A stretch of DNA of 64,000 bases from contig NZ_CP016540.2 in assembly GCF_001186155.3 (NCBI RefSeq), positions 3,016,001 to 3,080,000 on the forward strand, read 5' to 3'. A program made the translations under genes and the position numbers. The stretch is from Planococcus versutus. Its GTDB lineage: Bacteria; Bacillota; Bacilli; Bacillales_A; Planococcaceae. Below, one piece after another: positions 42,883-63,946 of this stretch. Below the pieces are notes generated by a model. The model made no database searches, was not told where the DNA came from, and worked only from the letters and a program-made list of their open reading frames with translations. How positions within the stretch are numbered: the first letter of the stretch is position 1; every line of letters begins with the position of its first letter.

Positions 42883-42916
42883 TGAATGTAACTTAACTGC
42901 ACTTTTGTTACATTCA
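42883..42916. repeat. Class A palindrome, copy 1
   Basis: Arms TGAATGTAACTTAA and TTGTTACATTCA with a short centre. This copy lies upstream of the truncated GNAT gene and about 130 nt after the stop of the next GNAT gene. It is isolated from the other copies, which start at 54.5 kb. Confidence 0.85.
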
Positions 42917-43048
42917 CTTAGGCAATTTACTTAATCTTATTTTAATCTCAAACTTTTAATAAGCAAGTTCGAATCTGATTGAAACGTAAGGCAGACTTTC
43001 TTAATTTTATTTATAAATTGAGTAGCAATAAAATCGATTCATTCTCTT

Positions 43049-43561
43049 TTACAAACGAGGGTTTTCATTTCCCCACAAATAATGTGTAAACTTCATTATT
43101 TCCCCGTTCATTTCGAATTCTTCATCGCCTACTCGAACTTGCTTAAACCCATTTCTTTCTAACACCTTTTGCGATGCATGGTTAACAGTCGTCGTTTTCC
43201 CACGTATTTGTTTCACACTTAAATCAGTTTTCAATAGTAGATTTAATGCCTGATTTCCGATTCCCTTTCCCACATATGTAGCCCCTACTCTAAATCCTAT
43301 GTCTGCAATGTTATCTTTCTTATCAACCAAGTTGATTCTTCCTACAATTTCTCCAGCATCATTGGTAATCAAGTAAAAATAAGAAAGGCCATTCTTTTGT
43401 TCCTTTAGCAATTCATGATGTCTTCTTATAAATGTTTCGAAAGAATAGTAATCGTCACCGCGACTTGGAACCATTTTTTCAAAAAACCATCGATTTTCAG
43501 ACTCAAACTTAAATAACGCTTCTGCATCGACTTCTTGTAATAGATTTAAAGATATCTCCAT
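43049..43561 (-). CDS. RimJ/RimL-type GNAT acetyltransferase
   Basis: About 170 residues. Family marks are the start MEISLNLLQEVDAEALFKFE, then YLITNDAGEIVGRINLVD, VGKGIGNQALNLLL and the ASQKVLERNGFKQVRVG signature. It acetylates an amino group of an unknown substrate, possibly a protein N-terminus, spermidine or an antibiotic. ATG 43561 is preferred over an upstream TTG; AAAGGA lies 11 nt upstream. It looks intact. Confidence 0.82.
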   Translation of the reverse strand: MEISLNLLQEVDAEALFKFESENRWFFEKMVPSRGDDYYSFETFIRRHHELLKEQKNGLSYFYLITNDAGEIVGRINLVDKKDNIADIGFRVGATYVGKGIGNQALNLLLKTDLSVKQIRGKTTTVNHASQKVLERNGFKQVRVGDEEFEMNGEIMKFTHYLWGNENPRL

Positions 43562-43700
43562 AAGTTGTCCAATCCTTTTCAAGTAGTGGATTTATTGATT
43601 TCTTTCATCATACCAATTATATCCATTATTTTTGATTATAAATAGAACTTTCTGAAATTCTACTTCGTTATATTTCTGTTATCAGATCCCCTCAGAAAAG

Positions 43701-43728
43701 CGTTCGTAAAAGTACACTTTTCCGAACG
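43701..43728. repeat. Class B element, left-arm hairpin only
   Basis: CGTTCG and CGAACG enclose an almost self-complementary AAAAGTACACTTTT. This is the best preserved copy of the left module of class B. The right module is not found here. It lies between the divergent GNAT and antitoxin genes. Confidence 0.7.
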
Positions 43729-43778
43729 AATATCAAAAGTCTTATGATTTAATACTTCTAGTTTTTGTAGATGAAGTA

Positions 43779-43814
43779 AAAAGACTTTTAAAAGTCTTTT
43801 AAAAAGTATATAAT
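43779..43814 (+). promoter_or_regulatory. Toxin-antitoxin promoter with perfect palindromic operator
   Basis: A perfect 22-bp palindrome (AAAAGACTTTT followed by AAAAGTCTTTT) spans 43779-43800. A consensus TATAAT follows at 43809-43814. The palindrome would cover the -35 region, as expected for autorepression by the antitoxin or TA complex. Confidence 0.7.
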
Positions 43815-43841
43815 GAAACTAACTTAAAGGAGTGGATAGAA

Positions 43842-44161
43842 ATGGCGATGAGAATACTCGATATCCCCACAACTTCGATTTCGAATGTCAAACGGTCACC
43901 CATGGAAGCTTTTCAGAAGGCCGATCAAGAAGCTGCTGGCGTGTATGTCTTCAACCGTGAAAAGGTTGCCGGTGTGATGCTTACCCAAAAACAATACGAG
44001 TCCTTGAACAGAGAAATAGAAGAACTTTACGATCAACTGGCTGATTTGATGGCTGAAAAACGGCTGCTGAAAGAAAATGTTTCTACTTTTACAGACGTAG
44101 AAGTCCGCGGAGCCATCGCAACTGCCCCCCTGTCATTGATGAAGAAGACGGGTGGGAATAA
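43842..44161 (+). CDS. Phd/YefM-like antitoxin, C-terminus frameshifted as read
   Basis: The first ~95 residues (SISNVKRSPMEAFQKADQEAAGVYVFNREKVAGVMLTQKQYESL) fit a type II antitoxin of the Phd/YefM class with an N-terminal DNA-binding fold. As written, the frame runs on to 44267, deep into the toxin gene, with an unlikely basic tail. One extra C in the C6 tract at 44125-44130 would give an acidic end PPVIDEEDGWE and a stop at 44159-44161. That stop lies 3 nt before the toxin start, the typical arrangement. The interval given is the restored gene. Confidence 0.75.
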
Positions 44162-44164
44162 CCG

Positions 44165-44455
44165 TTGTATCAGCTTGAATGGACACAGTATTCAAAGGAA
44201 GATTATGAACAGCTTGATGGCAGCCAAAAGATTTTCGTCCATAAAGCGCTGGACCGAATCAAATTGAGAGGCATGGAAGCTGGCCAATCCCTTCATGGCG
44301 ATTTAGCGCAATGCAACAAGCTGAAAAACAAGAAGATGGGCCTGCGGATTATTTTCAGAGAAGCCGTGGGAACCATCCAAGTGATTCAGATTGTAGCCAT
44401 TGGGAAACGCGATAAAGAGAAAATTTATAAGATGGCTGAAGAGCGATTAAGCTAA
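44165..44455 (+). CDS. RelE/ParE-superfamily toxin
   Basis: The 96-residue protein has the RelE-fold pattern: YQLEWTQYSKEDYEQLDGSQK, KALDRIKLRG, and beta strands MGLRIIFREAVGTIQVIQIVAIGKRDKEKIYKMAEERL. Most relatives cut mRNA at the ribosome. The TTG start is preceded by GGTGGGA and directly follows the restored antitoxin stop. It forms a type II toxin-antitoxin pair with the upstream gene. Confidence 0.82.
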   Translation: MYQLEWTQYSKEDYEQLDGSQKIFVHKALDRIKLRGMEAGQSLHGDLAQCNKLKNKKMGLRIIFREAVGTIQVIQIVAIGKRDKEKIYKMAEERLS

Positions 44456-44484
44456 CTTAAATGAAGAACAGGTTTCTCCGACTA

Positions 44485-44537
44485 AAAAGAGTCCGGCATG
44501 TCGGCACTTCTAAAGTGCTCGCTTTGCCGGACTCTTA
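44485..44537. terminator. Bidirectional terminator between convergent genes
   Basis: AAGAGTCCGGCA pairs with TGCCGGACTCTT; the inner loop also pairs (GCACTT with AAGTGC). It separates the toxin and the MFS gene. Confidence 0.88.
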
Positions 44538-44577
44538 TTTTGTTGATCCAGGTTATTCTCTAATTTGATGAAAACAA

Positions 44578-44604
44578 CTTCCGATAATCCGGAATATGTA
44601 AACT
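44578..44604. repeat. Class B element, right module
   Basis: CTTCCGATAA followed after 6 nt by ATATGTAAACT, placed right after the terminator hairpin and at the 3' end of both convergent neighbours. Confidence 0.75.
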
Positions 44605-44619
44605 CAATGCTTCCCACTT

Positions 44620-45894
44620 TCACGATTTCTTTATCCCATTGATGGTCGGTGGGCTTGATGAATCGGAGATTTTGAGGTTATAAGATTTATTAGCTTGAAC
44701 CAATGCAAAGAATTGAGCAAACACAATGAATAACAGGAACAGAAACAAATAATTTATAGATAGATTGGTTAAAAGTAGACCCCCGATTCCAGGTCCAATC
44801 GCATAGGCAAAGTTTCCACCAGCGCCTATTAAAGAAAAATAAGTAGCTTTCAAATTTGTCGGAGCGCTTTTCGCCATGACTGCTTGCATTCGCGGTGCTA
44901 CTATCATTTCTCCAATCGTGATAAACGCAAAAGAAATAAACCATGCGTAGGTAAAATTATTTAAGAACAACAAAATCAAAAATCCAAGAAAGTAAAGACT
45001 GTTACCAAATACGAAGGAGCGCACATTGCTAAACCGACTGAAAACGTGCGTTATAATCGGTTGTAAGACGACAATCAAGCCGGTCATCATAGCAACTAGC
45101 AATCCAAACAAGCGGACGCCATCTTCAAAAGAGCCATTTAAATATTGCGCAATGTTCGTATCGACTTGCGCTTCGATGAAAAAGATAAAGAAATAACTAA
45201 GCATCAGCCATATCAGTACACGGTCTTTCGTGAGTAAGGTGAATATTGACGTAGAGCCTGCTAGTTCTTTTTCTGCCTCTATATAGTGAGCAGAGATATC
45301 TGCTTTTTTGACACGGAACAAACCAATCATTGATCCAGCCAGCGCAACTAAAATAATCGAAAACAATACAATGGGTGTTTCATAACTTCCCATCTCAATG
45401 ACGAGTACACCCAGCAGCGGCCCTATAACCCCGCCTAGATTGATAACCCAGTAGTTATAACCGAAAACCACTTCAGTATGCGCTTTAGGAGTATGCAGCG
45501 CAAGAATCGAATTACTAGTCGAATTATAAACAGTCCAACCAATTCCAGCTAAGACAGAAAACAGTGCGATAACCAGATAATTTTCGAAGACGATATACCC
45601 AATCAAACTCGCTGCTGGAATAAGCAAAGCGATAGGATATACTTTGTGTATCCCAAACCTATCCGCAATCCTACCGCCTACAACACTGAAAACCAAAGAA
45701 CTGAGAGGAGAAATTCCAATCAAAACACCGACTTCTGCAGGCGTAAGGTTCAGTTTTTCGCTGAAATAAATGGCCATGAATGGCATAGACATAAAACGAA
45801 ATGTATTGAAGATAATATTGGCTAAAAGCAAAGACCACACCAAAAAAGGAATTTGTCGATAGCGTTCTTTAATTTTAGACAGTTTGCTACTCAT
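44620..45894 (-). CDS. MFS transporter (drug exporter type)
   Basis: About 424 residues with twelve membrane segments. Motif A GGRIADRFGIHKVYP lies in the first cytoplasmic loop, with GGVIGPLLGVL in helix 5. It resembles bacterial multidrug MFS exporters of the YfmO/MDR class. ATG 45894 is chosen because GGAGAAG lies just upstream; it overlaps the regulator stop by 8 nt. The regulator gene upstream likely controls both. Confidence 0.85.
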   Translation of the reverse strand: MSSKLSKIKERYRQIPFLVWSLLLANIIFNTFRFMSMPFMAIYFSEKLNLTPAEVGVLIGISPLSSLVFSVVGGRIADRFGIHKVYPIALLIPAASLIGYIVFENYLVIALFSVLAGIGWTVYNSTSNSILALHTPKAHTEVVFGYNYWVINLGGVIGPLLGVLVIEMGSYETPIVLFSIILVALAGSMIGLFRVKKADISAHYIEAEKELAGSTSIFTLLTKDRVLIWLMLSYFFIFFIEAQVDTNIAQYLNGSFEDGVRLFGLLVAMMTGLIVVLQPIITHVFSRFSNVRSFVFGNSLYFLGFLILLFLNNFTYAWFISFAFITIGEMIVAPRMQAVMAKSAPTNLKATYFSLIGAGGNFAYAIGPGIGGLLLTNLSINYLFLFLLFIVFAQFFALVQANKSYNLKISDSSSPPTINGIKKS

Positions 45895-46498
45895 ACTCTT
45901 CTCCATCTTCCGATGAATTGAAGAAAGGCTCATTCATACGGAAGCCGAAGGTCGAAATATAGAACCACTCCGCATCTTCGCTCTCTTCTACCACCCCTGT
46001 TAATTCTTCTAGCAAATTTTGGTATTTCATAACCCATTCTTTGAATTTTTCCTGCGTCATTTTCACTTCCAACTGGCTGGTAATTTTACTCCACTCTTTT
46101 GGATTTTCCGTTTCTGTTATAAAGGCAGTATCAGGGGCTTTTAAAACTCTTTCTTTTGTCCGTTCCAGCGCAGTGAGAGTCATTAGTTTTCCGCTTTCAT
46201 TTTGTGGTGCTTGAAAGGGCATTAGTTCTTTCGTAGGAATGTAACTTCTTGCGGTCGATCGGTACTGTTTCTCTGTCATATTCCGTTTTTTTGACTCACT
46301 GACCAGATAAATCAATTCATTTTTTTCAAGATCCTTTAAGTGGTAATGGATTTTTGAACGCGGAATATTTAACAATTGGGAAAGCTGTTGGCCCGAGTAA
46401 GGTTTTTCGATTAGTAAATGCAGCATCTTGACCCGTAACGGATCACTTAAGCTCTTTAATTGTTCTAACTGAGTTAAAAGAAAAATATTTTGTTTCAT
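45887..46498 (-). CDS. ArsR-like winged-helix transcriptional regulator
   Basis: The N-terminal ~75 residues form a winged helix (LKSLSDPLRVKMLHLLIEK, LSQLLNIPRSKIHYHLKDLEKNELI). A C-terminal helical domain of about 120 residues probably senses a ligand or mediates dimerisation. It is translationally coupled to an MFS exporter, suggesting a repressor relieved by the exported compound. Its own promoter is flanked by paired inverted repeats. Confidence 0.82.
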   Translation of the reverse strand: MKQNIFLLTQLEQLKSLSDPLRVKMLHLLIEKPYSGQQLSQLLNIPRSKIHYHLKDLEKNELIYLVSESKKRNMTEKQYRSTARSYIPTKELMPFQAPQNESGKLMTLTALERTKERVLKAPDTAFITETENPKEWSKITSQLEVKMTQEKFKEWVMKYQNLLEELTGVVEESEDAEWFYISTFGFRMNEPFFNSSEDGEEYE

Positions 46499-46517
46499 GT
46501 CATGTCCTCCTTTTTTA

Positions 46518-46582
46518 CTTGTCAGTTTTTATTGACATAAACATAACACCCTTTCGTTTCTTATGTCAATAAAATTTGACAT
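46518..46582 (-). promoter_or_regulatory. Promoter with two flanking inverted-repeat operators
   Basis: On the minus strand TTGACA and TATGTT are spaced by 18 nt. A palindrome with arms ATGTCAA and TTGACAT lies at 46563-46582, covering the -35 box. A second, looser one (TGTCA, TGACA) lies at 46519-46538, near the start of transcription. The layout suggests autorepression by the regulator just downstream. Confidence 0.65.
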
Positions 46583-46614
46583 GAACAAATAAATTATTGT
46601 ATGTCTTATTAAAA

Positions 46615-46727
46615 CGTTCGTAAAAGTAAAGGTTCAAGTACAAAAAAGGAGAAAAGATGCGCTACGTACAGCCTCTTCTCTCCTTAGTTATTTAAGCAAC
46701 TTCCGATAATGTGTCATATGTAAACTG
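46615..46727. repeat. Class B element, full copy
   Basis: The left module CGTTCGTAAAAGTA is followed by an A-rich stretch, then a hairpin GGAGAAAAGA against TCTTCTCTCC. The right module CTTCCGATAA plus ATATGTAAACT ends it. The hairpin is nearly the same as in the copy at 59360. Confidence 0.8.
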
Positions 46728-46969
46728 GTTAAAAAATAAATGCAGTTCAATGAAAATTTTTTAGATTATTTTGATGCTCGTACCTATTTATAATCTATGC
46801 CCTGTTGCCTTCTATACTATTGCTTATTGCAACTTTGCTTCAAAAGCAAGCGTCTAGTTTAATAAGAAATCTTTTAAAAGTGAGTATGAGAGATAATAAA
46901 ACCAAAGTGGTAAGTCAGGTAAAGGTGAGAACGAGAAACACTATTTGAACTTAAAGGATGTGAAGGAAT

Positions 46970-47422
46970 ATGGTGAAAATCCTCAAAGTAACTTTAGTTC
47001 TGGCTTTACTATTTTGCCTATATTTAATCTACACACACTTTACATATGAGTTTTACTATACGAACGGTGAAAAAGACGGAGATGTAGTCACTTCACCAAA
47101 TGAGGCATATTCTGCTCAAGTTTATTATCAAAATTATGGTGGGGCAGCAGGTGGAGTCAATGCGTTTGTAAATGTTATATTTCATTTAGAGGGTGATTTA
47201 GAAAGAACCGTTTATTTTAGTGATGCGAAGGGACGTGTCCAGTTAAATTGGCTTGGCGAGGATTTACTTTCTATTACCAATTACGATGAATATGGAGATA
47301 GAAGTATTGAATTGGTTGTAGAGAAAGAAATTTATGAGGAAGATGGCGGCGCTTGTGATACATACGAAATCAAACAAAATTATGTATGTTTCAGTAGGGA
47401 TCAAGTTAAAAACGGCATTTAA
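46970..47422 (+). CDS. DUF5412 family protein
   Basis: A 150-residue protein with one N-terminal membrane anchor and an outside beta-rich domain. The motif SPNEAYSAQVYYQNYGGAAGGVNAFVNV is typical of DUF5412. Function unknown. GAAGGA precedes the ATG, and a terminator and a class B module follow. Confidence 0.8.
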   Translation: MVKILKVTLVLALLFCLYLIYTHFTYEFYYTNGEKDGDVVTSPNEAYSAQVYYQNYGGAAGGVNAFVNVIFHLEGDLERTVYFSDAKGRVQLNWLGEDLLSITNYDEYGDRSIELVVEKEIYEEDGGACDTYEIKQNYVCFSRDQVKNGI

Positions 47423-47471
47423 AATAACTGCTGCTTTAGTTTAAGGAGCTATCGAAAATAAATAATAGAAT

Positions 47472-47505
47472 AAAAATCTCGATTCAAACTGAACTGAGAT
47501 TTTTT
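47472..47505. terminator. Terminator after the DUF5412 gene
   Basis: AAAAATCTC pairs with GAGATTTTTT around a 15-nt loop; the T-run makes it a good plus-strand terminator. Confidence 0.8.
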
Positions 47506-47538
47506 AATTTCTATTACAATTGTCAGCACGATATGCAG

Positions 47539-47565
47539 CTTCCGATAACTCATGATATGTAAACT
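47539..47565. repeat. Class B element, right module
   Basis: CTTCCGATAA, six bases, then ATATGTAAACT. It lies between the 3' ends of the DUF5412 gene and the Gabija operon. Confidence 0.75.
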
Positions 47566-47654
47566 GGTTATACATATAACAATATTTATCGATAATCTTT
47601 TATTCATTGCGAGCAAAAATATTAAGCTCGACTTTCAAAATCAGGGTACTGGAT

Positions 47655-53459: not shown

Positions 53460-54095
53460 TCACTCCACCGTCACTTCCGCAGCAAGAGAATAGGAAAAGT
53501 CAACGGGCAGATCGAACGGCATCACACGCACCAAATCTCCCTCCTTCAATTCTTCATACGCCTCCACTTTTCCCTTGAAAACCGTGGCATCCGTCAAATG
53601 CACTTCCTGGACAGACGAATCGCCCCAAAAGCCAGTTGCCACCATTTCCACAGTAAAACTTGCTTCCGTTTTTTCAGTCACGACACCCTCAATGATTCCT
53701 AAAAAGAATGAACTTGACTGGATCAGCAAGGCAACCGCAACGAGCCAGACAAACATTTCGCTCAACATGAAAAGGGATTGCTTCGGGTGCTTGGAAGCTG
53801 TCCACTCAAAGTACGCCTCCACTGTATAAGTTAGTATGATAAATACAATGACATAGACGAGCATATAAACAATTGAATTCTCTTCGGCAATGACATAAAA
53901 TAACGTTGCCACCCCTGCAATCAACAGAATCCCCCGCACAAACCAGTCTACTTTCAAGTGAGTTGCATTCACATAATTATTCGAAAAGAACTTCTTCTTC
54001 CGCGGCTCGACCTTCAGCCACTTCTTGAGAACGAATTTGATGATGGCGTTCACTGCGTACACGATGAATAGGAACAGTAATAGCTTAAACCACAT
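53460..54095 (-). CDS. DUF4181 membrane protein with added C-terminal domain
   Basis: The first ~125 residues match the DUF4181 protein at 19025-19435 (KKFFSNNYVNATHLKVDWFVRGI, EAYFEWTASKHPKQSLFMLSEMFVW). An extra ~85-residue beta-rich domain follows (TEASFTVEMVATGFWGDSS, YEELKEGDLVRVMPFDLPVDFS), possibly an OB-like NfeD-type fold. The ATG at 54095 is chosen because GGAGGGAGG lies 7 nt upstream. Its G+C content looks higher than the neighbours. Confidence 0.78.
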   Translation of the reverse strand: MWFKLLLFLFIVYAVNAIIKFVLKKWLKVEPRKKKFFSNNYVNATHLKVDWFVRGILLIAGVATLFYVIAEENSIVYMLVYVIVFIILTYTVEAYFEWTASKHPKQSLFMLSEMFVWLVAVALLIQSSSFFLGIIEGVVTEKTEASFTVEMVATGFWGDSSVQEVHLTDATVFKGKVEAYEELKEGDLVRVMPFDLPVDFSYSLAAEVTVE

Positions 54096-54458: not shown

Positions 54459-54575
54459 AGATTCTTTCAAAAACACGATTTTATAACCATACAGAATAGA
54501 CTTTTGAATGTATCATTTTTTCTAGCAACCCCATTCTTATCTCTCGCTCTTCGAAGATTACCGAAATAAAGGTTT

Positions 54576-54609
54576 TGAATGTAAATTAATTACACTTATG
54601 TTACATTCA
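54576..54609. repeat. Class A palindrome, copy 2
   Basis: TGAATGTAAATTAA and TTATGTTACATTCA arms. It opens the array of small genes. Confidence 0.88.
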
Positions 54610-54935: not shown

Positions 54936-54969
54936 TGAATGTAACTTACTTAGAGTTATGTTACATTCA
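54936..54969. repeat. Class A palindrome, copy 3
   Basis: Placed 32 nt after the stop of the small membrane protein gene. Arms TGAATGTAACTTA and TATGTTACATTCA. Confidence 0.88.
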
Positions 54970-55388: not shown

Positions 55389-55428
55389 AAGGCCAAGTGA
55401 GGGATGAATTCCCTTGCTTGGCCTTTTT
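55389..55428. terminator. Terminator abutting a class A palindrome
   Basis: GGCCAAGTGAGGG pairs with CCCTTGCTTGGCC and is followed by TTTTT, which directly joins the first base of class A copy 4. Termination is thus provided separately from the palindrome. Confidence 0.88.
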
Positions 55429-55461
55429 GAATGTAACTTAATTGCTATTAAGTTACATTCA
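55428..55461. repeat. Class A palindrome, copy 4 (contains a stop codon of a gene)
   Basis: TGAATGTAACTTAA and TTAAGTTACATTCA arms around a 6-nt centre. The right arm, read on the minus strand, encodes NVT and the TAA stop of the HEAT-like gene. It also serves as the 3' boundary of the convergent plus-strand gene. Confidence 0.92.
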
Positions 55462-55948
55462 AATCAAACAAAAGATCTAATACGTCTGTATGTAATTCTT
55501 GTTGTCTTTCAATTTCGTTCAGTTGTTCTTTTACCTTTTGAAGAGATGTTAACAAGGTATCGGCAGGCACTTTTCCATCCATGGATTCTAGAAGTTGATA
55601 CGCCATCGCTTGTACTTCAAAGTTTCCAGTTAAAAAATGATGAACAATGGTCTCTAAATGTCCAGTGCAATCGAAGGGTTCCAAAGCGTAAAACAAAGTC
55701 CCTTTATTTCCGAGTGTCTTGGGATCATTAATCAAGTCAAACAGAGGAGAGATCGCTTTTTCATTCCCGATATCCCGCAAAGCAATAGCAAGTGCATTTC
55801 TTATCCCTGAATTTTCGGTTAAGGTAATGTGTTTTATCAATACGGGGACTGCCTCGTCGTATTGATCAGAGGAAATTTCATTTATTAATCTTTCTACATC
55901 ATCCACATCATTTTTCTCAAGTGCATTTTCGAGCAGATTGATGTTCAT
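55448..55948 (-). CDS. HEAT-like repeat protein, possible immunity protein
   Basis: 166 residues, all helical, with HEAT-type units such as AVPVLIKHITLTENSGIRNALAIALRDIGNEKAISPLFDLIND. Such proteins occur among immunity proteins of polymorphic toxins, but also elsewhere. The last four codons, NVT and TAA, lie within the palindrome. The ATG has GGAGAGAAGG upstream. Confidence 0.68.
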   Translation of the reverse strand: MNINLLENALEKNDVDDVERLINEISSDQYDEAVPVLIKHITLTENSGIRNALAIALRDIGNEKAISPLFDLINDPKTLGNKGTLFYALEPFDCTGHLETIVHHFLTGNFEVQAMAYQLLESMDGKVPADTLLTSLQKVKEQLNEIERQQELHTDVLDLLFDLNVT

Positions 55949-55992: not shown

Positions 55993-56026
55993 TGAATGTA
56001 ACTTAATTCACAATAAGTTACATTCA
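55993..56026. repeat. Class A palindrome, copy 5
   Basis: Lies 3 nt beyond the stop codon of the next minus-strand gene. Arms TGAATGTAACTTAA and TAAGTTACATTCA. Confidence 0.9.
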
Positions 56027-56029: not shown

Positions 56030-56407
56030 TCAACTTCTGACTATTGCGATTGATTTGCAGGTAATCTGACAATCCATCATGGGAATCACCATTTGAACCT
56101 GATAAAGATGAACACCCTCCACTTCAATTCCTGTGATTGATATGGCCTGAAAAAAGAAAGCTGACTCGATAGGGGATTGGGGAACGTATCCTCCTGCCCC
56201 TTCTAACCAAGTATTAAAGCTCGCTGAAAAACATTCTTTGAACAAAACGGTATATTCCTTTTCCTCTACTTCATTATCCCTTGAGCCCATATATTTCATC
56301 GTTACTAAGTGTTTGCTTTGATCATAGTTTAATTCCTTTAATTCTGAATCTATACAATTTGTATTCCCTAATCTCATTTCAACTTCTTGCCCACTTAGTC
56401 GCACCAT
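56030..56407 (-). CDS. Uncharacterised protein, possible immunity protein
   Basis: 125 residues, beta-rich by pattern (KHLVTMKYMG, EKEYTVLFKECFSASFNTWLEGAGGY, YQVQMVIPMMDCQITCKSIAIV). No membrane segment or known family was recognised. AGTGGAGGTTATAA precedes the start. It is placed between class A copies 5 and 6. Confidence 0.6.
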   Translation of the reverse strand: MVRLSGQEVEMRLGNTNCIDSELKELNYDQSKHLVTMKYMGSRDNEVEEKEYTVLFKECFSASFNTWLEGAGGYVPQSPIESAFFFQAISITGIEVEGVHLYQVQMVIPMMDCQITCKSIAIVRS

Positions 56408-56459: not shown

Positions 56460-56493
56460 TGAATGTAACTTAACTGCACTTTTGTTACATTTA
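56460..56493. repeat. Class A palindrome, copy 6
   Basis: TGAATGTAACTTAA on the left and TTGTTACATTTA on the right. It nearly matches copy 1 at 42883, including the centre CTGCACTTTTG. Confidence 0.88.
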
Positions 56494-56906: not shown

Positions 56907-56980
56907 TGAATCATGTTTTACACCGTTCTTAAACTATACTCAGTAGCAAATGAGAAAGCCAGATTGGGTTGGAAGTATAT

Positions 56981-57077
56981 CCGTTCCCAGAAGGACGCTT
57001 ACCCAAACAAACGGAAGGGAGTGAAGCTAAGGTTGCGCTTCTTCCCTTCCGATAACCCAGCGAGAATTAAGCTAAAT
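56981..57077. repeat. Diverged G+C-rich class B element
   Basis: CGTTCCCAGAAGGAC is followed by a hairpin GGAAGGGAGTGAAGC against GCGCTTCTTCCCTTCC and then CTTCCGATAACCC. The module order is that of class B, with a different hairpin and a weak right end. Confidence 0.5.
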
Positions 57078-57162
57078 AGCAGGCTATTAACTTTAGCTTT
57101 ACACCACCTCATGAACAAGAAGAGGAAAACTCCTTTTAAACTAAGGTCAATTGGAATTAAAT

Positions 57163-57192
57163 AAAAGGACTTCTCCTTCGAAGTCCTTTTCG
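57163..57192. terminator. Terminator after the minus-strand secreted protein gene
   Basis: AAAAGGACTTC pairs with GAAGTCCTTTT around a 6-8 nt loop just past the stop at 57200. Confidence 0.85.
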
Positions 57193-57199
57193 TTATTTC

Positions 57200-57598: not shown

Positions 57599-57641
57599 CC
57601 CCATATCCCCTTCCTTATTCTTTCCTCGATGCGAGTGGGTT

Positions 57642-58424
57642 TTATTCTGGTTCTTGCACCATATCGTAAGGTGGTATGTTGATTCCTTGATTCTGGATCG
57701 TCATGCTGCCGCGGTCCACGATATAGGAAGTCAAATTGGTTCCTTTTTCCGTTCCTTTTTGCCATTTCTCAGAAAAACTCACAAGGTAAACGTCTTTTTC
57801 CAGCTGTTTGACAGCCGTAGTTCGCTCCACCAGATAGCCCGCAACCACGCCTTTCCATGTCCCTACTTCATCCGGAAAGTCATCAATTTTCGTATCATCA
57901 TCTCTAGTGACAAACTCAACCGCCTCCTCTGCTGTCACTGGAGGCAAAGGTGGCGTTGTAAGTTGAAAGTACCCCCACAGCAGCACGAAGGCAGCAAGTG
58001 CAGAGATGAAAAATGCTTTGTTTCCTTTGTCCTGCCGCCACTTTCTCAGCAGCCATTTATCGATCACAGCACAAAGGGTGGCAATCAGCATGCCCGCAAT
58101 GATATAGAATTTAAATGGGAAGAGCACCCCAATGGCGGAACCACTTGCCCCGACAATAAACACATACAACCAGTTGGCCCGTTCAAACCATTCCCGCTGG
58201 AATAATTCGACCGTGTAGGATACCAAATTTCCAAAAGTCAGGACAAAGAATCCGACGTAGAAAAAGTAAGTCAACGTCATTCCGTAAAAATGTTCTCCCA
58301 GATGGTAGACGATTTCTTCATCAGCATAAATATCCCAGATGCTCCAAGCCATAGCAAAAATAAATGAGGCGAGAAACGTGGCCTTCAATTTTCGAGCGAT
58401 GAGTTCCCCTGTACTTTCTGTCAT
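57642..58424 (-). CDS. Polytopic membrane protein of unknown function
   Basis: 260 residues with five or six membrane helices in the first ~160 residues. A soluble tail follows (VTAEEAVEFVTRDDDTKIDDFPDEVGTWKGVVAGYLVERTTAVKQLEKDVYLVSFSEKW). Family not recognised. It lies 43 nt before the anchored small protein gene in the same direction, probably one unit. Confidence 0.68.
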   Translation of the reverse strand: MTESTGELIARKLKATFLASFIFAMAWSIWDIYADEEIVYHLGEHFYGMTLTYFFYVGFFVLTFGNLVSYTVELFQREWFERANWLYVFIVGASGSAIGVLFPFKFYIIAGMLIATLCAVIDKWLLRKWRQDKGNKAFFISALAAFVLLWGYFQLTTPPLPPVTAEEAVEFVTRDDDTKIDDFPDEVGTWKGVVAGYLVERTTAVKQLEKDVYLVSFSEKWQKGTEKGTNLTSYIVDRGSMTIQNQGINIPPYDMVQEPE

Positions 58425-58610
58425 CCTGATCCCTCTCTTATTTCTGGCTTCTTTTCTTCATTCTAAGCCTGTTTTCGCCACGTTCTAAGTCTGCTGATTA
58501 AGCTTTATAATGCTATATACTTAAACGTTTTCCTAGTCAGAAAGTTTCGTGCATAGCTACTTTATACCTGAGAAGTGTAGTCGATAGAAGTTGAATGAGT
58601 AAGGAAAACA

Positions 58611-58682
58611 CGTTCGCAAACCAAAAGAAGAGAAAACCTTTATATAAAGTTCTCCCTTCCGATAAGTATTGATATGTAAACT
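58611..58682. repeat. Class B element, full but compact copy
   Basis: CGTTCG, then a hairpin GAGAAAACCTT against AAAGTTCTC, then CTTCCGATAA and GATATGTAAAC. It ends 5 nt from the stop codon of the kinase-like gene. Confidence 0.75.
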
Positions 58683-58687
58683 ACTTT

Positions 58688-59215
58688 TTAACTGTAGAAA
58701 TTTAAAATTTCAACGTGCAGTTCTTCAAGGGAAAGAGAAGCATCAAGCTTTAAAACCGAGCTCTTTGATAGTTCCATTTGATAAGCATGTTCTGCGTAAG
58801 TGCCTGTAATTTCTTTTTCCGTTGCAGTTAAATAAGTCTTGCACCATTCCAAAAAATCATTGGTATTTTCGCCAGTATTCATTTGCGAAAATTGGCTTTT
58901 GCGTTCAATTTCTCTCTTTTGTAATCTGTCCATTCGGACTTTTTCGTCTAAGAAGAGGAATACGAGTAAATCTCGATTTCTGAAACCATCTGGACACCAT
59001 GAAAAAATAGAACCAGAAGCAACATACTCTTTATGTATTTCCATGTCTTTTTGATACATTTTCTTACGTTCTTCTACTGAAAAATTTTCTGTAAAGGAAT
59101 TATCTTTCCAAAGATAATTATCAGTATCAATCCATTTAATTTTTTCTTTTTCACTGATATATTTACCTAAAGTGCTTTTGCCAGTACCAGAACCCCCGAT
59201 GATCTGAATTTTCAT
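58688..59215 (-). CDS. P-loop kinase-like NTPase (adenylate kinase/FlaR type)
   Basis: 175 residues with Walker A IIGGSGTGKST (residues 5-15), then WIDTDNYLWK and DLLVFLFLDEKVRMDRLQKREIERK, as in small DNA-topology-modulation/FlaR or adenylate-kinase-like proteins. The substrate is unknown. A class B repeat touches its 3' end. Confidence 0.75.
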   Translation of the reverse strand: MKIQIIGGSGTGKSTLGKYISEKEKIKWIDTDNYLWKDNSFTENFSVEERKKMYQKDMEIHKEYVASGSIFSWCPDGFRNRDLLVFLFLDEKVRMDRLQKREIERKSQFSQMNTGENTNDFLEWCKTYLTATEKEITGTYAEHAYQMELSKSSVLKLDASLSLEELHVEILNFYS

Positions 59216-59359
59216 TGTTTTAGTCCTCCAAAATGTTTTAATATATTTCTCGCAACCCTATACCAAATATTACACTAACCGTCAGAATATTTTTGCTGCG
59301 TATTTAAGTTTGCTAAAAATATTTCAAGGATAAAAAGATGAGTCCATATGTTTTTCAAG

Positions 59360-59469
59360 CGTTCGTAAAAGGAAAATTTCATGAACAAAAAGGAGAAAAG
59401 ATATGCTACGTATAACCTCTTCTCTCCTTTTCTCTATAAGTCTCTTCCGATAAACTACGATATGTAAAC
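59360..59469. repeat. Class B element, full copy
   Basis: The left module CGTTCGTAAAA is followed by a hairpin GGAGAAAAGA against TCTTCTCTCC, then CTTCCGATAA and GATATGTAAACC. The hairpin is almost identical to the one at 46615, which indicates recent copying. Confidence 0.8.
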
Positions 59470-59587
59470 CTAGATCTTTTAAGATTCAAGTTTTAAAACC
59501 TTACAGAACAGTATTCTGAATGTATCATTTTTTCAAATGGCATTAGTTCGAAATGATTCCCTTGGAAAGCCAGTAGAATCAAGTAAA

Positions 59588-59621
59588 TGAATGTCACTTA
59601 ATTTAGATTAAGTGACATTCA
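59588..59621. repeat. Class A palindrome, copy 7, with compensatory change
   Basis: Arms TGAATGTCACTTAA and TTAAGTGACATTCA. The A-to-C change in one arm is matched by T-to-G in the other, so pairing is kept. This supports selection on the folded or symmetric form. Confidence 0.9.
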
Positions 59622-59643
59622 AAAACAAAAGATTTTATTCAGT

Positions 59644-60327
59644 TTAGAAGCCTTCATAAATTGTTATTTTCCATGGTAGCCACATCAAGTCTTCTTCCGC
59701 CATTCCCTGTTCAGCGAGCACCTCATTGGTGTAACGGGCAAGAGCTTCTGCCGATTGCAGTTCTGGAAACAAACCGTATTTATTGATTGAAAGGTTTGGA
59801 TCGAGTGCCAGATAATCCTTGAAAAGATGATTACCCAAGAACGAGAGAAACCGGCCGCCCAGCTCATAGCCTGCAATATCGTACCCTGCGAATATCCCAC
59901 CGCTGCTAGTTGGTTGTTTTTTTTTCAAGCAGTAGACGACTCCCTCTCCTTCTCCAGTTTCGTCATTGATAGGGTCCCGCCAGTCGTGAAAGTCCGGAAG
60001 ATACTTCTCGTCAAGGCTGATGCCGATCAGACTCACCGACGGTTCCTGGGCTCTTGCTTCCCGATAGCCTTCCAGTGCGTCTTCCAGCGTACCAAATACC
60101 ATGGATACAAAGACCTTATCCAGCACCGATTTGGATAAGACGGGTGTCGGCCTTTTAGGCTTTCGGTCTGCCCAAATATCAAAAATGTTGGGGAAAACAC
60201 CGCCCACTTCCTCATCCATCGAAATCAGCTTTTCGAGGTGGAATCCGCCATCATCCACTTGGGTGAGATAAAAGGGTTGATTGGCGCTTGCTGCAGAAAG
60301 AAGAAAATAGCCACCACTGTATTCCAT
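59644..60327 (-). CDS. Uncharacterised soluble protein, possible immunity protein
   Basis: About 227 residues, rich in aromatic and acidic residues (YFLLSAASANQPFYLTQVDDGGFHLEKLI, FGTLEDALEGYREARAQ, WLPWKITIYEGF). No known domain was recognised. ATG 60327 is chosen because GGAGGTG lies 6 nt upstream; the frame is open further up, but only through class A copy 8. Higher G+C content than its neighbours. Confidence 0.65.
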   Translation of the reverse strand: MEYSGGYFLLSAASANQPFYLTQVDDGGFHLEKLISMDEEVGGVFPNIFDIWADRKPKRPTPVLSKSVLDKVFVSMVFGTLEDALEGYREARAQEPSVSLIGISLDEKYLPDFHDWRDPINDETGEGEGVVYCLKKKQPTSSGGIFAGYDIAGYELGGRFLSFLGNHLFKDYLALDPNLSINKYGLFPELQSAEALARYTNEVLAEQGMAEEDLMWLPWKITIYEGF

Positions 60328-60381
60328 CCGTTGCACCTCCATTTTCGGTCTTCCGTTTTCCACACAAAGAAAATGTAGAAC

Positions 60382-60415
60382 TGAATGTAACTTAATAGCA
60401 ATTAAGTTACATTCA
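60382..60415. repeat. Class A palindrome, copy 8 (contains a stop codon)
   Basis: Perfect arms TGAATGTAACTTAA and TTAAGTTACATTCA. Its first three bases on the minus strand (TGA) are the stop codon of the next gene. Confidence 0.93.
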
Positions 60416-60736
60416 GATTTGTCGTTCATTAGCTATACGATCTCTTTTATTTTTAAAGAACTCCATCACAAGAATATTTATGAATGCGTTTATCGGAATG
60501 AAAAATAGTAATGTCACTATACCCATTGAATCAAATAAACCTTCTGTCTGTTTATGAAAAGTTTGAACATCCAATTTGTAAAGATGCACCGAAGCAATTG
60601 AAAGGATAAGTGCATTTACAAAAAAGACAGCTAAAATTCTTGTCCATTTATTTGCTTTTGTTTTTATCATCCAAAGAGATGCCAGAGAAGAAACAAGTAA
60701 AGAAAATAGAATAATTCCTAGAAATACTGGATGCAA
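60413..60736 (-). CDS. Small three-helix membrane protein
   Basis: 107 residues with three hydrophobic segments and a basic tail (KNKRDRIANERQI). The TTG start has AGGAGGGA upstream. Its TGA stop is the edge of class A copy 8. Function unknown; small membrane proteins of this form occur in poly-immunity arrays. Confidence 0.65.
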   Translation of the reverse strand: MHPVFLGIILFSLLVSSLASLWMIKTKANKWTRILAVFFVNALILSIASVHLYKLDVQTFHKQTEGLFDSMGIVTLLFFIPINAFINILVMEFFKNKRDRIANERQI

Positions 60737-60769
60737 CTATATCCCTCCTAGATTGATTTTGTTAGAAAA

Positions 60770-60803
60770 CGAATGTAACTTAATTCACATTAAGTTACAT
60801 TCA
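60770..60803. repeat. Class A palindrome, copy 9
   Basis: GAATGTAACTTAA and TTAAGTTACATTC arms around CATTCA-type centre, 20 nt beyond the stop of the next minus-strand gene. Confidence 0.92.
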
Positions 60804-60823
60804 CTTTCTCTTCCTAACTGATC

Positions 60824-61309
60824 TTATTTAAACTCTTCAGGACTCCATATGGCGATTTCGTTACCTGGAACAGCCACAATCAACCAGTCACCATCCCCAT
60901 ATCCATGATTATCTCCAACTTGCCAACACTCATAGTTTTCATCATGTCCATTTACATACAATACTTTTCCGGACTCAAGCGAAATATATAAATGCGGCGA
61001 ATCTTCTCCGAGCCAAATATCTTTCACTTTTTCTCTTCGGTTTCTCAACAGCAGCTGAAACGACTCTTCATCGTCGAGTTCTTCTAAGGTTTCTTTAGAA
61101 ATCGTGGTTAATTGCTCATCACTAGCAATGATCGCAATTTTCCTTACTTCGATGTTCAACCATAACTGGTCTGGATCTTGCTCAGAGTAATGAGAAAAAC
61201 AGACACGCACTACCCCCGGACCAATGCCAAATTGGAAACCATCAAGTTGACTTCCAATCAGCAGTTTTTTTAAAGCTCTCTCTGCGAAGTTTCTGTCTTC
61301 TCTTTTCAT
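60824..61309 (-). CDS. Uncharacterised protein, possible immunity protein
   Basis: 161 residues, alpha/beta by pattern, with a central LWLNIEVRKIAIIA strand set and C-terminal HLYISLESGKVLYVNGHDENYECWQVGDNHGYGDGDWLIVAVPGNEIAIW. No family fixed. ATG 61309 follows GAGGGGAAG; an upstream ATG is less well placed. Its boundaries are class A copies 9 and 10. Confidence 0.65.
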   Translation of the reverse strand: MKREDRNFAERALKKLLIGSQLDGFQFGIGPGVVRVCFSHYSEQDPDQLWLNIEVRKIAIIASDEQLTTISKETLEELDDEESFQLLLRNRREKVKDIWLGEDSPHLYISLESGKVLYVNGHDENYECWQVGDNHGYGDGDWLIVAVPGNEIAIWSPEEFK

Positions 61310-61343
61310 TTCTTCCCCTCTCTTATTCATCATTTAGCGAATC

Positions 61344-61377
61344 TGAATGTAACTTAACTGCACTTATGTTACATTCA
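61344..61377. repeat. Class A palindrome, copy 10
   Basis: Arms TGAATGTAACTTAA and TATGTTACATTCA, centre CTGCACT as in copies 1 and 6. Confidence 0.9.
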
Positions 61378-61446
61378 GATTCAATAAAAAGCCGTGCTCT
61401 TTTTTTGAACGCGATCTTTCATTTGCGTATGCTATTTTAGTTAAGC

Positions 61447-61596
61447 TTATCTTCTGTATTCGAATTTTTTTATAAGATGATCAACTCTTAGCGCAATATA
61501 AATCAAGACCATTGCCGCAATAGCTTCCCAGATCCCCCCGAAAAAGAATCCGATGGCTGCACCAAAAGCGATGTAAATAGCTAACGTTTTCTCCAC
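61447..61596 (-). CDS. Small membrane protein (49 residues)
   Basis: Starting at GTG 61596 with GAGGGGG upstream, the frame reads MEKTLAIYIAFGAAIGFFFGG and continues with a second hydrophobic stretch (AIAAMVLIYIAL) and a basic tail to TAA at 61447. It has two short membrane helices with glycine-rich packing motifs. The family is unknown. It sits between class A copies 10 and 11. Confidence 0.6.
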   Translation of the reverse strand: MEKTLAIYIAFGAAIGFFFGGIWEAIAAMVLIYIALRVDHLIKKFEYRR

Positions 61597-61688
61597 CCCA
61601 AACACCCCCTCTTTTTCTAAATATTAGTATAACCGAAAAAGAGAATGAGGTTATTTTATTTTTCGTAAGCACTTATAAGACAGTAATT

Positions 61689-61722
61689 TGAAAGTAACTT
61701 ACTTAGACTTAAGTTACACTCA
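61689..61722. repeat. Class A palindrome, copy 11, diverged
   Basis: TGAAAGTAACTTA and TAAGTTACACTCA. One base differs in each arm at non-matching places, so this copy is decaying. Confidence 0.82.
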
Positions 61723-61883
61723 AAACCAAGAAAAAAATTATGAATAGATAATTTAAAATAACTTTTTCATTGGAAATGATTGGTATAATGAGTGCTGACA
61801 AAGGTGATTTCTAATATGACCAGGACAAACGAAAAAAGTGTAAGAATGGACGGGTATCCTACAAAATTCGATGGAGGTAAAAA

Positions 61884-62438
61884 ATGAAGAAGAAGTTGTT
61901 GTTTACTCTTTTATGTATTCTAGTAATTGGTGTTGGTTATACAATATTTTATGTTAATCAGTATTCTGTTAAAGACAATCGAGCGTCTATCCTTGCTGAT
62001 TTGACGACATGGGAAAGTAGAGGAAGCGAAGAAGAAATTAAAATCCTGAAAATGACACAGATCAACCATACTACATCGTACGTTGTGCTTTTTGAAACAG
62101 CAGATAAATATGTGGGGTATGCACACTTGCTTAAAGGGTGGAATGGACAATTCAAAATTGTAGAATCAGGTGCAGGAACGAATAGTGTCAAATACCGTGA
62201 CCTTAAAACGAATCAAGGCGTGTATGGTATTCTGGCCGGAAAAAATCCGGATTTACAAATCGATCACATTACGGCGAAATCTGCATTTACCGATGAGGAC
62301 TTCAGTTTCACTTCACCTATTTCTGAAGATGCAACGTTTTTGGTATACAAAAAACTTCCTGAAGATTTAAAAGAGACTTTTCTTACCTTTACGCTCTACG
62401 ATGAAAATGGAAAGATAATTGAGCCGGCAAGTGAATAG
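61884..62438 (+). CDS. Membrane-anchored protein of unknown function
   Basis: 184 residues: an N-terminal hydrophobic helix (LLFTLLCILVIGVGYTIFYV) and an exported beta-rich domain (TTSYVVLFETADKYVGYAHLLKGWNGQFKIVESG). GGAGG precedes the ATG. The product resembles small secreted proteins found beside DUF5412-type genes in Bacillales, but no family could be named. A class A copy lies 45 nt beyond the stop. Confidence 0.65.
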   Translation: MKKKLLFTLLCILVIGVGYTIFYVNQYSVKDNRASILADLTTWESRGSEEEIKILKMTQINHTTSYVVLFETADKYVGYAHLLKGWNGQFKIVESGAGTNSVKYRDLKTNQGVYGILAGKNPDLQIDHITAKSAFTDEDFSFTSPISEDATFLVYKKLPEDLKETFLTFTLYDENGKIIEPASE

Positions 62439-62483
62439 AGTGATAGACAAAAAGAAGAAGAAAAGCCTCTGTAATCAATAAAA

Positions 62484-62517
62484 TGAATGTAACTTAATTA
62501 TCATTATGTTACATTCA
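62484..62517. repeat. Class A palindrome, copy 12
   Basis: TGAATGTAACTTAA and TTATGTTACATTCA arms, on the 3' side of the preceding plus-strand gene. Confidence 0.9.
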
Positions 62518-62641
62518 GAAATTATTAAAACTCCCTTTTCTTGATTTTGGTAAAATAGGGATAATCGATTTTATAGCTCTTTCAAGAAAAACAAATACAA
62601 AATTTCGCATTCGCAACCGGATTACAAATGGAGGATAAGGC

Positions 62642-63547
62642 ATGAAAAAAGTAATTGATATGATTGATTCGAAATCAATCAAGACAGGCGTTTCATTGGT
62701 CGATTTAAAAAAAGCCGAAAAACAACTAGGGGCACTTTTCCCAGATGAATTCAAGGACCTTTATCTAGAAACGAATGGCGCCGAATTTGGTGAATGGGTC
62801 TTATTTTCACTCCCCATGATTCAAAACCAATCCAACAGCCCTGAAAACTTACCTGCTGATATGATTTGTATTGGAGAGAATAAGAGTGGCGATAAACTTT
62901 GTTACCGCATCCGAAAAAGATGGATGCAGGAGCATGTCTACCGCTGGACAGCCAAAAGTGGAAATATAGAAAATAAAGCGTCCACGTTATATCAGTTCAT
63001 CGATTGGTTTGTTCCCAAAAAGAATGCCGGAAAGTCTCAAGCAATTGGCCATTTTGCAGTAGAAAGTGGAAAGCTGGTTGTGACAGATCCATGCTACTCA
63101 ATCGAGGATACAGAGATGCAAGTTCATTTAGTCAATGTAAAAAAAGGACAATGGACAGCCTCCATTTCGTATACAGACGATGAGACCGTTGAAACATTAA
63201 CGGCACATTTCACAGAAAAGAAACCGAGTGGCAAATGGCATGTCTGCGATCGGCTGATTGGCGTTGATTCTGCACAGGCCGGAATATTCGATGCTGCTTT
63301 ATTTGGACAAGATGAAAGTATTCCTGGTGAAGTAGAAAACGTTTATGGCATTGAGATGGATGAAGAGGGATTGAAATACTATGTTGCCTGTTCAGATAAG
63401 GTGGCATCTGATGACCAGGGAGGGATAATCCCTGGCGGCACCGTTGCAATGTCCGGATACGGCGACGGAATGTATGAAGTCAGAATAAAATACAATGTTT
63501 CCAAAGAGATAGTGGGCGTGATGATCGACTTTGGTGACGAAGAATAA
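62642..63547 (+). CDS. SMI1/KNR4 plus DUF4241 protein, likely immunity protein
   Basis: 301 residues in two domains. Residues ~10-125 fit SMI1/KNR4 (SLVDLKKAEKQLGALFPDEFKDLYLETNGAEFG). Residues ~140-300 fit DUF4241 (VTDPCYSIED, ICDRLIG-like VCDRLIGVDSAQAGIFD, AMSGYGDGMYEVRI, GVMIDFGD). The SMI1/KNR4 superfamily is the most common immunity fold of bacterial polymorphic toxins. No matching toxin gene is in the window. GGAGGATAAGGC precedes the ATG. Confidence 0.82.
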   Translation: MKKVIDMIDSKSIKTGVSLVDLKKAEKQLGALFPDEFKDLYLETNGAEFGEWVLFSLPMIQNQSNSPENLPADMICIGENKSGDKLCYRIRKRWMQEHVYRWTAKSGNIENKASTLYQFIDWFVPKKNAGKSQAIGHFAVESGKLVVTDPCYSIEDTEMQVHLVNVKKGQWTASISYTDDETVETLTAHFTEKKPSGKWHVCDRLIGVDSAQAGIFDAALFGQDESIPGEVENVYGIEMDEEGLKYYVACSDKVASDDQGGIIPGGTVAMSGYGDGMYEVRIKYNVSKEIVGVMIDFGDEE

Positions 63548-63567
63548 TCACTTGATTTGTCTTTATC

Positions 63568-63601
63568 TGAATGTAACTTAATTAGACTTATGTTACATTC
63601 A
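63568..63601. repeat. Class A palindrome, copy 13
   Basis: TGAATGTAACTTAA and TATGTTACATTCA arms, 20 nt past the stop of the SMI1/KNR4-DUF4241 gene. Confidence 0.9.
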
Positions 63602-63704
63602 AACTTAATTTTCAAAATCCTTTTCGTTGAAAAAATTTCCAATTGACAATTTACTTTTATGTTAAAATAACTGAAAAAATAAAATAATTTTTGGGGGTTA
63701 AAAA

Positions 63705-63863
63705 ATGAAATACCTCTTCTTATCTGTTTTTGTAGTTACAATTGTTTGGCCTATTTTAGGCCTGCTGTCAGGAGACATGGATTTTAGTGGAATGGGTCTA
63801 TTTATTGGTGGAATATCATTGGGATTCATCTTGAGAAAAGTAACTGAACCAGAACCTGAATAA
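63705..63863 (+). CDS. Small membrane protein (52 residues)
   Basis: The frame starts MKYLFLSVFVVTIVWPILGL and ends in LRKVTEPEPE, with two hydrophobic segments. GGGGG precedes the ATG. A terminator and a class A copy follow, as for its neighbours. Function unknown. Confidence 0.62.
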   Translation: MKYLFLSVFVVTIVWPILGLLSGDMDFSGMGLFIGGISLGFILRKVTEPEPE

Positions 63864-63867
63864 AAGA

Positions 63868-63899
63868 AAAAATACTCACTCAACAGGTGAGTATTTTTA
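63868..63899. terminator. Terminator after the small membrane protein gene
   Basis: ATACTCAC pairs with GTGAGTAT around TCAACAG, with A- and T-runs on both sides. Confidence 0.88.
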
Positions 63900-63906
63900 T
63901 TGAATC

Positions 63907-63946
63907 TGAATGTAACTTAATTAGTTTTAAGTTACCATATACATTC
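63907..63946. repeat. Class A palindrome, copy 14, with an insertion in one arm
   Basis: TGAATGTAACTTAA is intact; the right arm reads TTAAGTTAC, then six extra bases, then ATTC. The right arm carries the TAA stop of the partial gene on the minus strand. Confidence 0.75.

Follow-up and report, generated by a model that had tools for sequence, protein, structure and literature searches.

Palindromic sites of a putative mobile gene-cassette system in the genus Planococcus and a linked plasmid-borne tyrosine recombinase

Background

The Cre-loxP site is 34 bp long, with inverted arms around a directional centre, and with unequal centres one cassette can be exchanged for another at its position; the attC sites of integrons are 57 nt or more and imperfect, with unpaired bases and R and L boxes. 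For the plasmid dif (pdif) sites that bound the dif modules of Acinetobacter, a published study describes recombination between equal or nearly equal 6-bp spacers, replacement of single modules and the formation of cointegrates, which are proposed there to carry single modules across; it gives distinct XerC and XerD half-sites in alternating orientation, worked by the host XerC/D, and calls the system unique to Acinetobacter (PMC13141974). Here we analyse a window of 64,000 nucleotides from Planococcus versutus (assembly GCF_001186155.3, contig NZ_CP016540.2, positions 3,016,001 to 3,080,000), which holds a family of 34-bp palindromes. Comparison with other sequences indicates that these palindromes are the sites of a mobile gene-cassette system of the genus Planococcus, and it is likely that a plasmid-borne recombinase of 187 amino acids (aa), here called P0001, exchanges the cassettes at them.

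The dif modules share with this system small gene modules on plasmids, some of them Rep_3 plasmids, and short sites with a 6-bp spacer. They have distinct XerC and XerD half-sites in alternating orientation, whereas the arms of the Planococcus sites are one sequence inverted and the sites of an array point one way. The Planococcus system further differs in its ordered 6-bp centres (cores), in arrays that lie on chromosomes as well, and in the linkage of its end site to a tyrosine recombinase of plasmids. Integrons and clusters of attC sites lacking integrases (CALINs; PMC8618304) have in common with the Planococcus arrays cassettes that mostly hold one gene and have a site close to its end, a tyrosine recombinase gene beside a special end site, enzyme-free arrays elsewhere and a large pool of unknown genes. 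The initial annotation of the window had likened the layout to that of attC sites and suspected that the sites are not attC, and we agree on both counts: the Planococcus site is a 34-bp near-perfect palindrome, unlike attC when judged by eye, and P0001, the only one of the seven tyrosine-recombinase matches in the genome to be scored in this way, reached 33 bits against the integron integrase model TIGR02249 (cut-off 265). A further contrast with integrons is that Planococcus encodes the enzyme downstream of the cassettes and on the same strand, and that the cores are ordered. The likeness to Cre-loxP cassette exchange lies in the 34-bp site form, the directional centre and the swap between unequal centres, but that exchange is an engineered use of one phage enzyme whereas the Planococcus system is natural, with several recurring cores and a 187-aa enzyme. 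By the features tested, the Planococcus system works like dif modules and integrons and is a member of neither.

We found no description of a Planococcus cassette system in the open-access literature, as judged by titles and the beginnings of abstracts and with subscription papers and preprints outside the scope. If our reading is true, Gram-positive bacteria have a further cassette-shuffling system, made of other parts than integrons and dif modules, and a pool of small mobile genes is opened. With ordered cores, one could test how an array stays open to exchange by a recombinase and yet remains stable, and the combination of a small enzyme and numerous unequal, directional cores might be developed into a tool.

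Results and discussion

Form and distribution of the sites

The consensus site is TGAATGTAACTTAW-NNNNAR-TTAAGTTACATTCA, i.e. a directional core of 6 bp flanked by 14-bp arms in inverted orientation (34 bp in total), as derived from 362 sites of clear polarity with at most six arm mismatches; 376 sites were collected in all, with overlaps between loci kept. Sites with more than six arm mismatches were likewise excluded from the sets used for the core, tail, array and cassette-pair counts, as were intersite segments below 100 bp or above 3 kb before counting, and the counts depend on the mismatch limits and on the assemblies, many of which are drafts. All 14 palindromes listed in the initial annotation were found again with the same arms and positions: 13 have 0-3 mismatches across the 28 arm positions, and the copy at 63907 has four, in the right arm only. 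The window holds 28 arm matches with at most two mismatches, compared with a mean of 1.55 (maximum 6) in 100 shuffles. No site occurs below 42.8 kb, where the best place has nine arm mismatches, in agreement with the earlier statement that 0-42 kb is free of copies.

At a limit of three mismatches the genome of the window carries 56 sites. They lie on two plasmids (70.7 and 9.8 kb) and, on the chromosome, in four clusters at about 1.18-1.20, 1.47-1.48, 1.77-1.79 and 3.06-3.08 Mb; a reversed control pattern gave 0 matches genome-wide at this limit. Among 100 genomes scanned, the site (at most three mismatches) is present in 45 of the 46 genomes of the same genus and in 0 of the 54 others. An exact scan of named genomes returned 101 stretches; among the 80 listed, 79 are from Planococcus or Planomicrobium and the remaining one is an 11-kb draft contig of Gracilibacillus boraciitolerans. 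This contig (L066:688-1300) carries a cassette 98% identical to window positions 60770-61377, by transfer or contamination. Phages were considered as carriers, and the viral contigs were without any exact site match.

The distribution bears on one option that had been raised for the palindromes, namely repetitive extragenic palindromic (REP)-like repeats spread by a Y1 (RAYT) transposase. The palindromes do lie between genes, and the genome has a single Y1 transposase match, but this match (C1:2533090) is outside all four clusters, and the sites form clusters, have a direction and lie at the borders of exchanged genes; we give this option practically no credence.

Order of the cores along the arrays

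Along an array the cores form a series, beginning with GTGCAG (S1), followed mostly by TGTGAA (S2), often by TAGCAA (S3), and closed by an end core that is mostly nnnTAA (T). Of 117 arrays examined, 88 have S1, and TGTGAA is in second place in 73 of these; TAGCAA takes the third place in 37 of 74 arrays, and TGTGAA stands ahead of TAGCAA in 44 of 45, the one departure being found in cluster A, in a composite whose cores are variants. GTGCAG was itself the point of division between arrays, which makes the finding of S1 first in 88/88 true by construction; the figures for second and third place are unaffected. A core is repeated in 4 of the 117 arrays against 47 expected, but the null used destroys the order, and this comparison therefore adds nothing independent. 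Polarity is common to all sites of an array, bar three reversed-core sites opposed to every neighbour (window 60382-60415, L113:1298 and L110:4822). The variable centre noted initially is thus a core that indeed differs among copies; its directionality and its ordering by position had been missed.

Behind the end site there is usually a conserved tail of approximately 110 bp, which includes a further half-site, TGATACATTCA. The tail follows 71 sites, distributed as T 57/95, other cores 10/40, S3 2/52, S2 2/84 and S1 0/91. At the other end of the arrays, the DNA ahead of S1 comprises few recurring gene-end families, one of them common to plasmid C3 and cluster C, and the final bases ahead of S1 are weakly conserved (TTTAGCGGAAT-like).

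Exchange of cassettes between genomes

We take a cassette to be the stretch between consecutive sites, which would mostly hold one small gene. Comparison of 282 cassettes gave 121 full-length homologous pairs (alignments covering less than 93% of the length were excluded), which are non-independent in that a few families supply many of them. Among the 115 pairs with readable flanks, the DNA is unrelated outside both sites in 99 and outside one site in 14, and is related on both sides in two. Of the 11 intersite segments below 3 kb in the window, seven have a full-length homologue elsewhere, e.g. the segment 60770-61377, which is 97-98% identical in L119 and L066 where the neighbours are different.

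The boundary is sharpest at an orthologous chromosomal locus (gene 53460-54095 of the window) in genomes G000, G045, G007 and G024, which represent four species. The tail side is 89-97% identical, and the identity stops at most 2 nt from the outer edge of the T site; beyond it, there is no blastn match above 60 nt across 984-1391 nt in these four genomes. G007 and G024 have an equal core and 97% tail-side identity, yet the DNA on the array side is unrelated. Gene content between copies thus differs among genomes, a check that the initial annotation had proposed, and neither of the outcomes it had named as refuting, even genome-wide scatter or conserved gene order, was seen. Genome comparison shows that the exchanged units are bounded by the sites and indicates that cassettes are exchanged one by one.

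The same cassette was found in different slots, and homologous cassettes then mostly carry the cores of the slot and not those of the cassette. This would suit transposon-like units with TTAAGTTACATTCA as terminal repeats and the 6-bp core as a target remnant. The cores, however, are fixed words recurring in a fixed order, and inverted pairs number 0/121 although symmetric ends would permit inversion. A search that did not cover every transposase family gave no array-linked transposase comparable to the tyrosine recombinase, and a transposon-like origin is in our view highly improbable. Five pairs had first been marked as inverted; none was left once orientation was read from several neighbouring sites, the cause being ties at reversed-core sites.

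Both cores are kept in 7/9 cassette pairs with at least 97% identity, in 6/17 at 95-97%, in 8/26 at 90-95% and in 5/47 below 90%, and both are equal in 8.7% of random pairs. This pattern fits frequent exchange between equal cores and rarer exchange between unequal ones, but common descent of arrays would contribute to it as well.

A plasmid-borne tyrosine recombinase linked to the end site

The absence of an integrase, as stated initially, is correct for the window only; the genome as a whole has seven tyrosine-recombinase family matches, one of them broken. The gene of P0001 is intact and belongs to the 9.8-kb plasmid, whose initiator is of the Rep_3 type; it is placed there behind an array's end site. 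It scored 76.2 bits in PF00589 (cut-off 27.1), a family for the catalytic domain alone, and R47, K71, H135, R138, H161 and Y170, which we take to be the R-K-H-R-H-Y catalytic set of tyrosine recombinases, are invariant in 12/12 homologues. P0001 missed the cut-offs of the XerC, XerD and XerS models, with 56.7, 56.4 and 30.3 bits against 335.15, 329.6 and 267. A site with tail lies 202-1140 bp upstream on the same strand in 36 of 38 distinct recombinase copies (at least 84% identity; matches below this or shorter than 180 aa were excluded). The other two are at contig edges with flanks of 0 and 3 nt, and one of these, L178, is a copy of L213, which shows the site if its contig is read as a circle. 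The copies reside on plasmids or plasmid-sized contigs. The recombinase is present in 18 of the 46 genus genomes (E 1e-50), and the mean number of sites is 21.2 in these and 10.8 in the 28 genomes without it (Mann-Whitney p 0.023).

Because of this linkage to the end site, we infer that the recombinase is the catalyst. Of the options raised initially, a new recombination site is strongly supported by the site-bounded movement of cassettes together with a tyrosine recombinase linked to the array end. In the mechanism we propose, each arm would bind one recombinase subunit, and the enzyme, whose gene follows the end site of the array carried by the plasmid, would cut near the core edges and join sites of two molecules by exchanging strands across the core. 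A plasmid would pair with another array at one site, giving a cointegrate, and resolution at another site would let the intervening cassettes change places. Equal cores would pair most easily and so act as addresses with their order kept; unequal cores would recombine more rarely, moving a cassette to another slot. We conjecture that arrays with a repeated core would lose the DNA between, such that only arrays whose cores all differ last.

A more specific version, which we put forward tentatively and would not favour over its negation, is a position-coded exchange in which GTGCAG, TGTGAA, TAGCAA and nnnTAA are the addresses of slots 1, 2, 3 and the end. The recombinase would swap a cassette into a defined slot of another plasmid or chromosomal array, each core would be a property of the slot rather than of the gene, and loss of arrays with repeated cores would maintain the order. 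Engineers' unequal lox sites likewise swap a cassette into a defined place.

Two apparently recent events were noted. In genome G020, plasmid C3 (8,393 bp) is found within contig C4 (22,457 bp), split at the end site; 8,359/8,359 bases are equal outside the site and two copies of a second plasmid adjoin. The two plasmids are identical for 293 bp past the site, which places the crossover between the site and that point. In G026, a contig closing to 13.2 kb carries the recombinase gene twice, along with two identical S2-to-T copies of one cassette (381 nt), and its halves differ from the first bases past the two sites.

Ordinary homologous recombination between repeats could also shuffle cassettes, given that the arms are common to all sites, and the C3/C4 crossover falls within a 328-bp identical stretch. 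The stretch shared by the sites, however, is just 34 bp with a differing core, which is short for RecA, and the breakpoints are at the site edge with nothing else in common. As this process also leaves the recombinase linkage and the core order unexplained, we regard it as very unlikely to account for the exchange.

An alternative with somewhat more in its favour, if still unlikely, is that the host XerC/XerD work the sites, as in the Acinetobacter dif modules, and that the role of the plasmid recombinase is confined to the resolution of plasmid multimers at the end site. Sites without the plasmid recombinase (E 1e-50) are found in 27 genomes of the genus, and the genome of the window has two Xer-like frames of 304 codons. 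The 6-bp core is as in pdif, and the arm variant TTATGTTACAT resembles TTATGTTAAAT, a listed pdif XerD half-site (PMC13141974). Against this alternative, the likely host dif, ACTTCCGATAATTTATATTATGTAAACT at C1:1568393, is asymmetric and different, whereas the arms of the cassette sites are one sequence inverted. Furthermore, all 36 recombinase copies with readable flanks are behind a site with tail, and several diverged recombinase homologues adjoin palindromes with other arms.

Homologues of P0001 are common, with a match at E 1e-5 in 2216 of 72,556 plasmid records; the identity is below 60% in 2196 of these, and most are in Bacillota with some in rhizobia. Palindromes of the same form beside several of them have the arms and cores TGAATGTATGAAAA-TGTATA (Solibacillus), TGAATGTACGATAA-TATAAA (Peribacillus), AACATGTAACACAA-TATGTA (Macrococcus) and CGAATGCAACATAA-TGATGA (Bacillus badius). 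Upstream palindromes with 13-14 of 14 pairs, as reached by 0/100 mononucleotide shuffles, were found at 11 of 39 homologue loci (two of which are the same plasmid). The small plasmid recombinases of other genera are homologous to P0001, and upstream of several there is a palindrome like that of Planococcus in form, but those read have mostly one site and no array; our guess is that they act in plasmid resolution. Two sites occur in a Macrococcoides caseolyticum plasmid, in which two palindromes with similar arms surround one small gene just ahead of the recombinase (L228:7595, 8033), possibly a cassette in another genus. The Lysinibacillus capsici plasmid pFN9D (L223:12830, 26333), annotated with cfr and lsa(B), has a recombinase 89% identical, with seven matching places; it also has the site and tail, with one such site per unit in the part read.

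Several observations weigh against exchange by the plasmid recombinase as proposed. The enzyme is found in 18 of the 46 genus genomes and the sites in 45, so that it would have to act in trans, come and go, or have company; G022, which has the recombinase, holds just two sites. Homologous recombination may have made the C3/C4 cointegrate. For the address idea, both cores are kept in just 6/17 (95-97%) and 8/26 (90-95%) pairs, and shared ancestry of the arrays could alone produce the core order without core matching. At the homologue loci, three of the 11 upstream palindromes (L223, L231 and L238) are not site-like and an equally good palindrome lies downstream at 4/39; for this reason the argument from homologues draws less on the number of loci than on the arm pattern they have in common.

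A serine recombinase, P0002 (PF00239), was considered as the array enzyme and set aside, as near copies are present on plasmids of Priestia, Staphylococcus, Proteus and others. It is encoded at L055:6474-7091 (plasmid C2) and C1:3082020-3082637, near the heads of two arrays and divergent from them.

Cassette genes

In 248 of the 282 segments (those above 1.6 kb or without a called ribosome-binding site were excluded) we analysed the cassette genes, which fall into 138 protein families, 88 of them seen once. The median product is 103-149 aa in the five commonest slot types. Among 35 cassette proteins scanned, 16 matched a Pfam family at cut-off, including SMI1/KNR4, HEAT repeats, DUF3885, DUF4304, DUF3916, DUF7878, DUF5694, DUF4181, VanZ, histidine phosphatase, nucleotidyltransferase, MazE-type antitoxin and HTH. 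Immunity proteins are known among the SMI1/KNR4 (SUKH) and DUF families. A defence function was examined with ten cassette proteins against PADLOC, which gave weak partial matches in two.

The gene stop is found between -34 and +60 nt relative to the next site in 178/248 cassettes, and starts are equally near the preceding site in 121/248. The placement at gene 3' ends that was noted initially therefore stands as a tendency; a copy after almost every gene is an overstatement for 56.5-59.5 kb, with several open reading frames that have no site. The genes run along the array in 185/248 cases, ranging from 62/65 in slot S1-S2 to 14/40 in slot S3-T.

Proximity to gene stops would also be expected if the palindromes acted on RNA, as terminators or 3'-end stabilisers spread with gene ends. 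The hairpins of four folded copies (-11.2 to -22.3 kcal/mol) each beat all 200 shuffles. Terminator-like calls were nonetheless obtained in just 4 of 13 copies scanned, so that as a family the sites do not have the stem plus T-run of an intrinsic terminator, and 26 of the 40 genes ahead of the end site, in slot S3-T, are opposed to the array. The exchange boundaries, the recombinase linkage and the core order would be left unexplained, and a transcript-end element, as had been suggested, has in our judgement almost no chance of being the main explanation; the palindromes may have a side effect on RNA ends.

Features of the window

All sites of the window are on the minus strand unless stated. 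A lone site (42883-42916) has the S1 core (GTGCAG on the minus strand) and two arm mismatches. From 54.5 kb on there are three tandem arrays, which the initial annotation had not recognised, the third ending beyond the window at genome position 3081383.

Array 1 has its head, the S1 site with core GTGCAG, at 56460-56493. It continues with the S2 site (TGTGAA, 55993-56026), the S3 site (TAGCAA with perfect arms, 55428-55461), a site with core CTCTAA whose orientation is taken from its neighbours (54936-54969) and the T site (GTGTAA, 54576-54609), at whose outer edge synteny with the three other species stops; the conserved tail extends approximately over 54466-54575 (minus strand). Slot S1-S2 holds a gene for 125 aa without a Pfam family (56030-56407, minus strand), with relatives on plasmid C2 and in cluster C, and slot S2-S3 a gene for a HEAT-repeat protein of 166 aa (55448-55948, minus strand), with full-length homologous cassettes elsewhere.

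Array 2 runs from the S1 site (GTGCAG, 61344-61377) through the S2 site (TGTGAA, 60770-60803) and an S3-type site on the plus strand, with core polarity opposed to its neighbours (60382-60415), to the end site (TCTAAA, 59588-59621), behind which the tail covers approximately 59478-59587 (minus strand). Its three cassette genes are all on the minus strand. The first (60824-61309) encodes 161 aa and is DUF6188-like, below cut-off, in the cassette that recurs between other neighbours in L119 and L066 at 97-98% identity. The second (60413-60736) encodes 107 aa in a cassette 96% identical to one in cluster A of the same genome, and the third (59644-60327) encodes 227 aa without a Pfam family in a cassette 93% identical in L074 and 92% in L112, where the neighbours are other ones.

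Array 3 enters the window from its S1 at 3081383 (genome) with a site of core AACTAA that has one damaged arm with four mismatches (63907-63940), followed by sites with cores GTCTAA (63568-63601) and TGATAA (62484-62517) and by a last site, again GTCTAA, without a recognised tail (61689-61722). Both genes given here are on the plus strand and opposed to the array: one for a protein of 301 aa with SMI1/KNR4 and DUF4241 (62642-63547), in a cassette 91% identical in L202, and one for 184 aa without a Pfam family (61884-62438).

Elsewhere in the genome, an apparent transposase gene pair, which we take to be IS3-type, occurs twice with the same starts of both proteins (C1:1473164-1474308 and 1770133-1771277), between arrays in clusters B and C.

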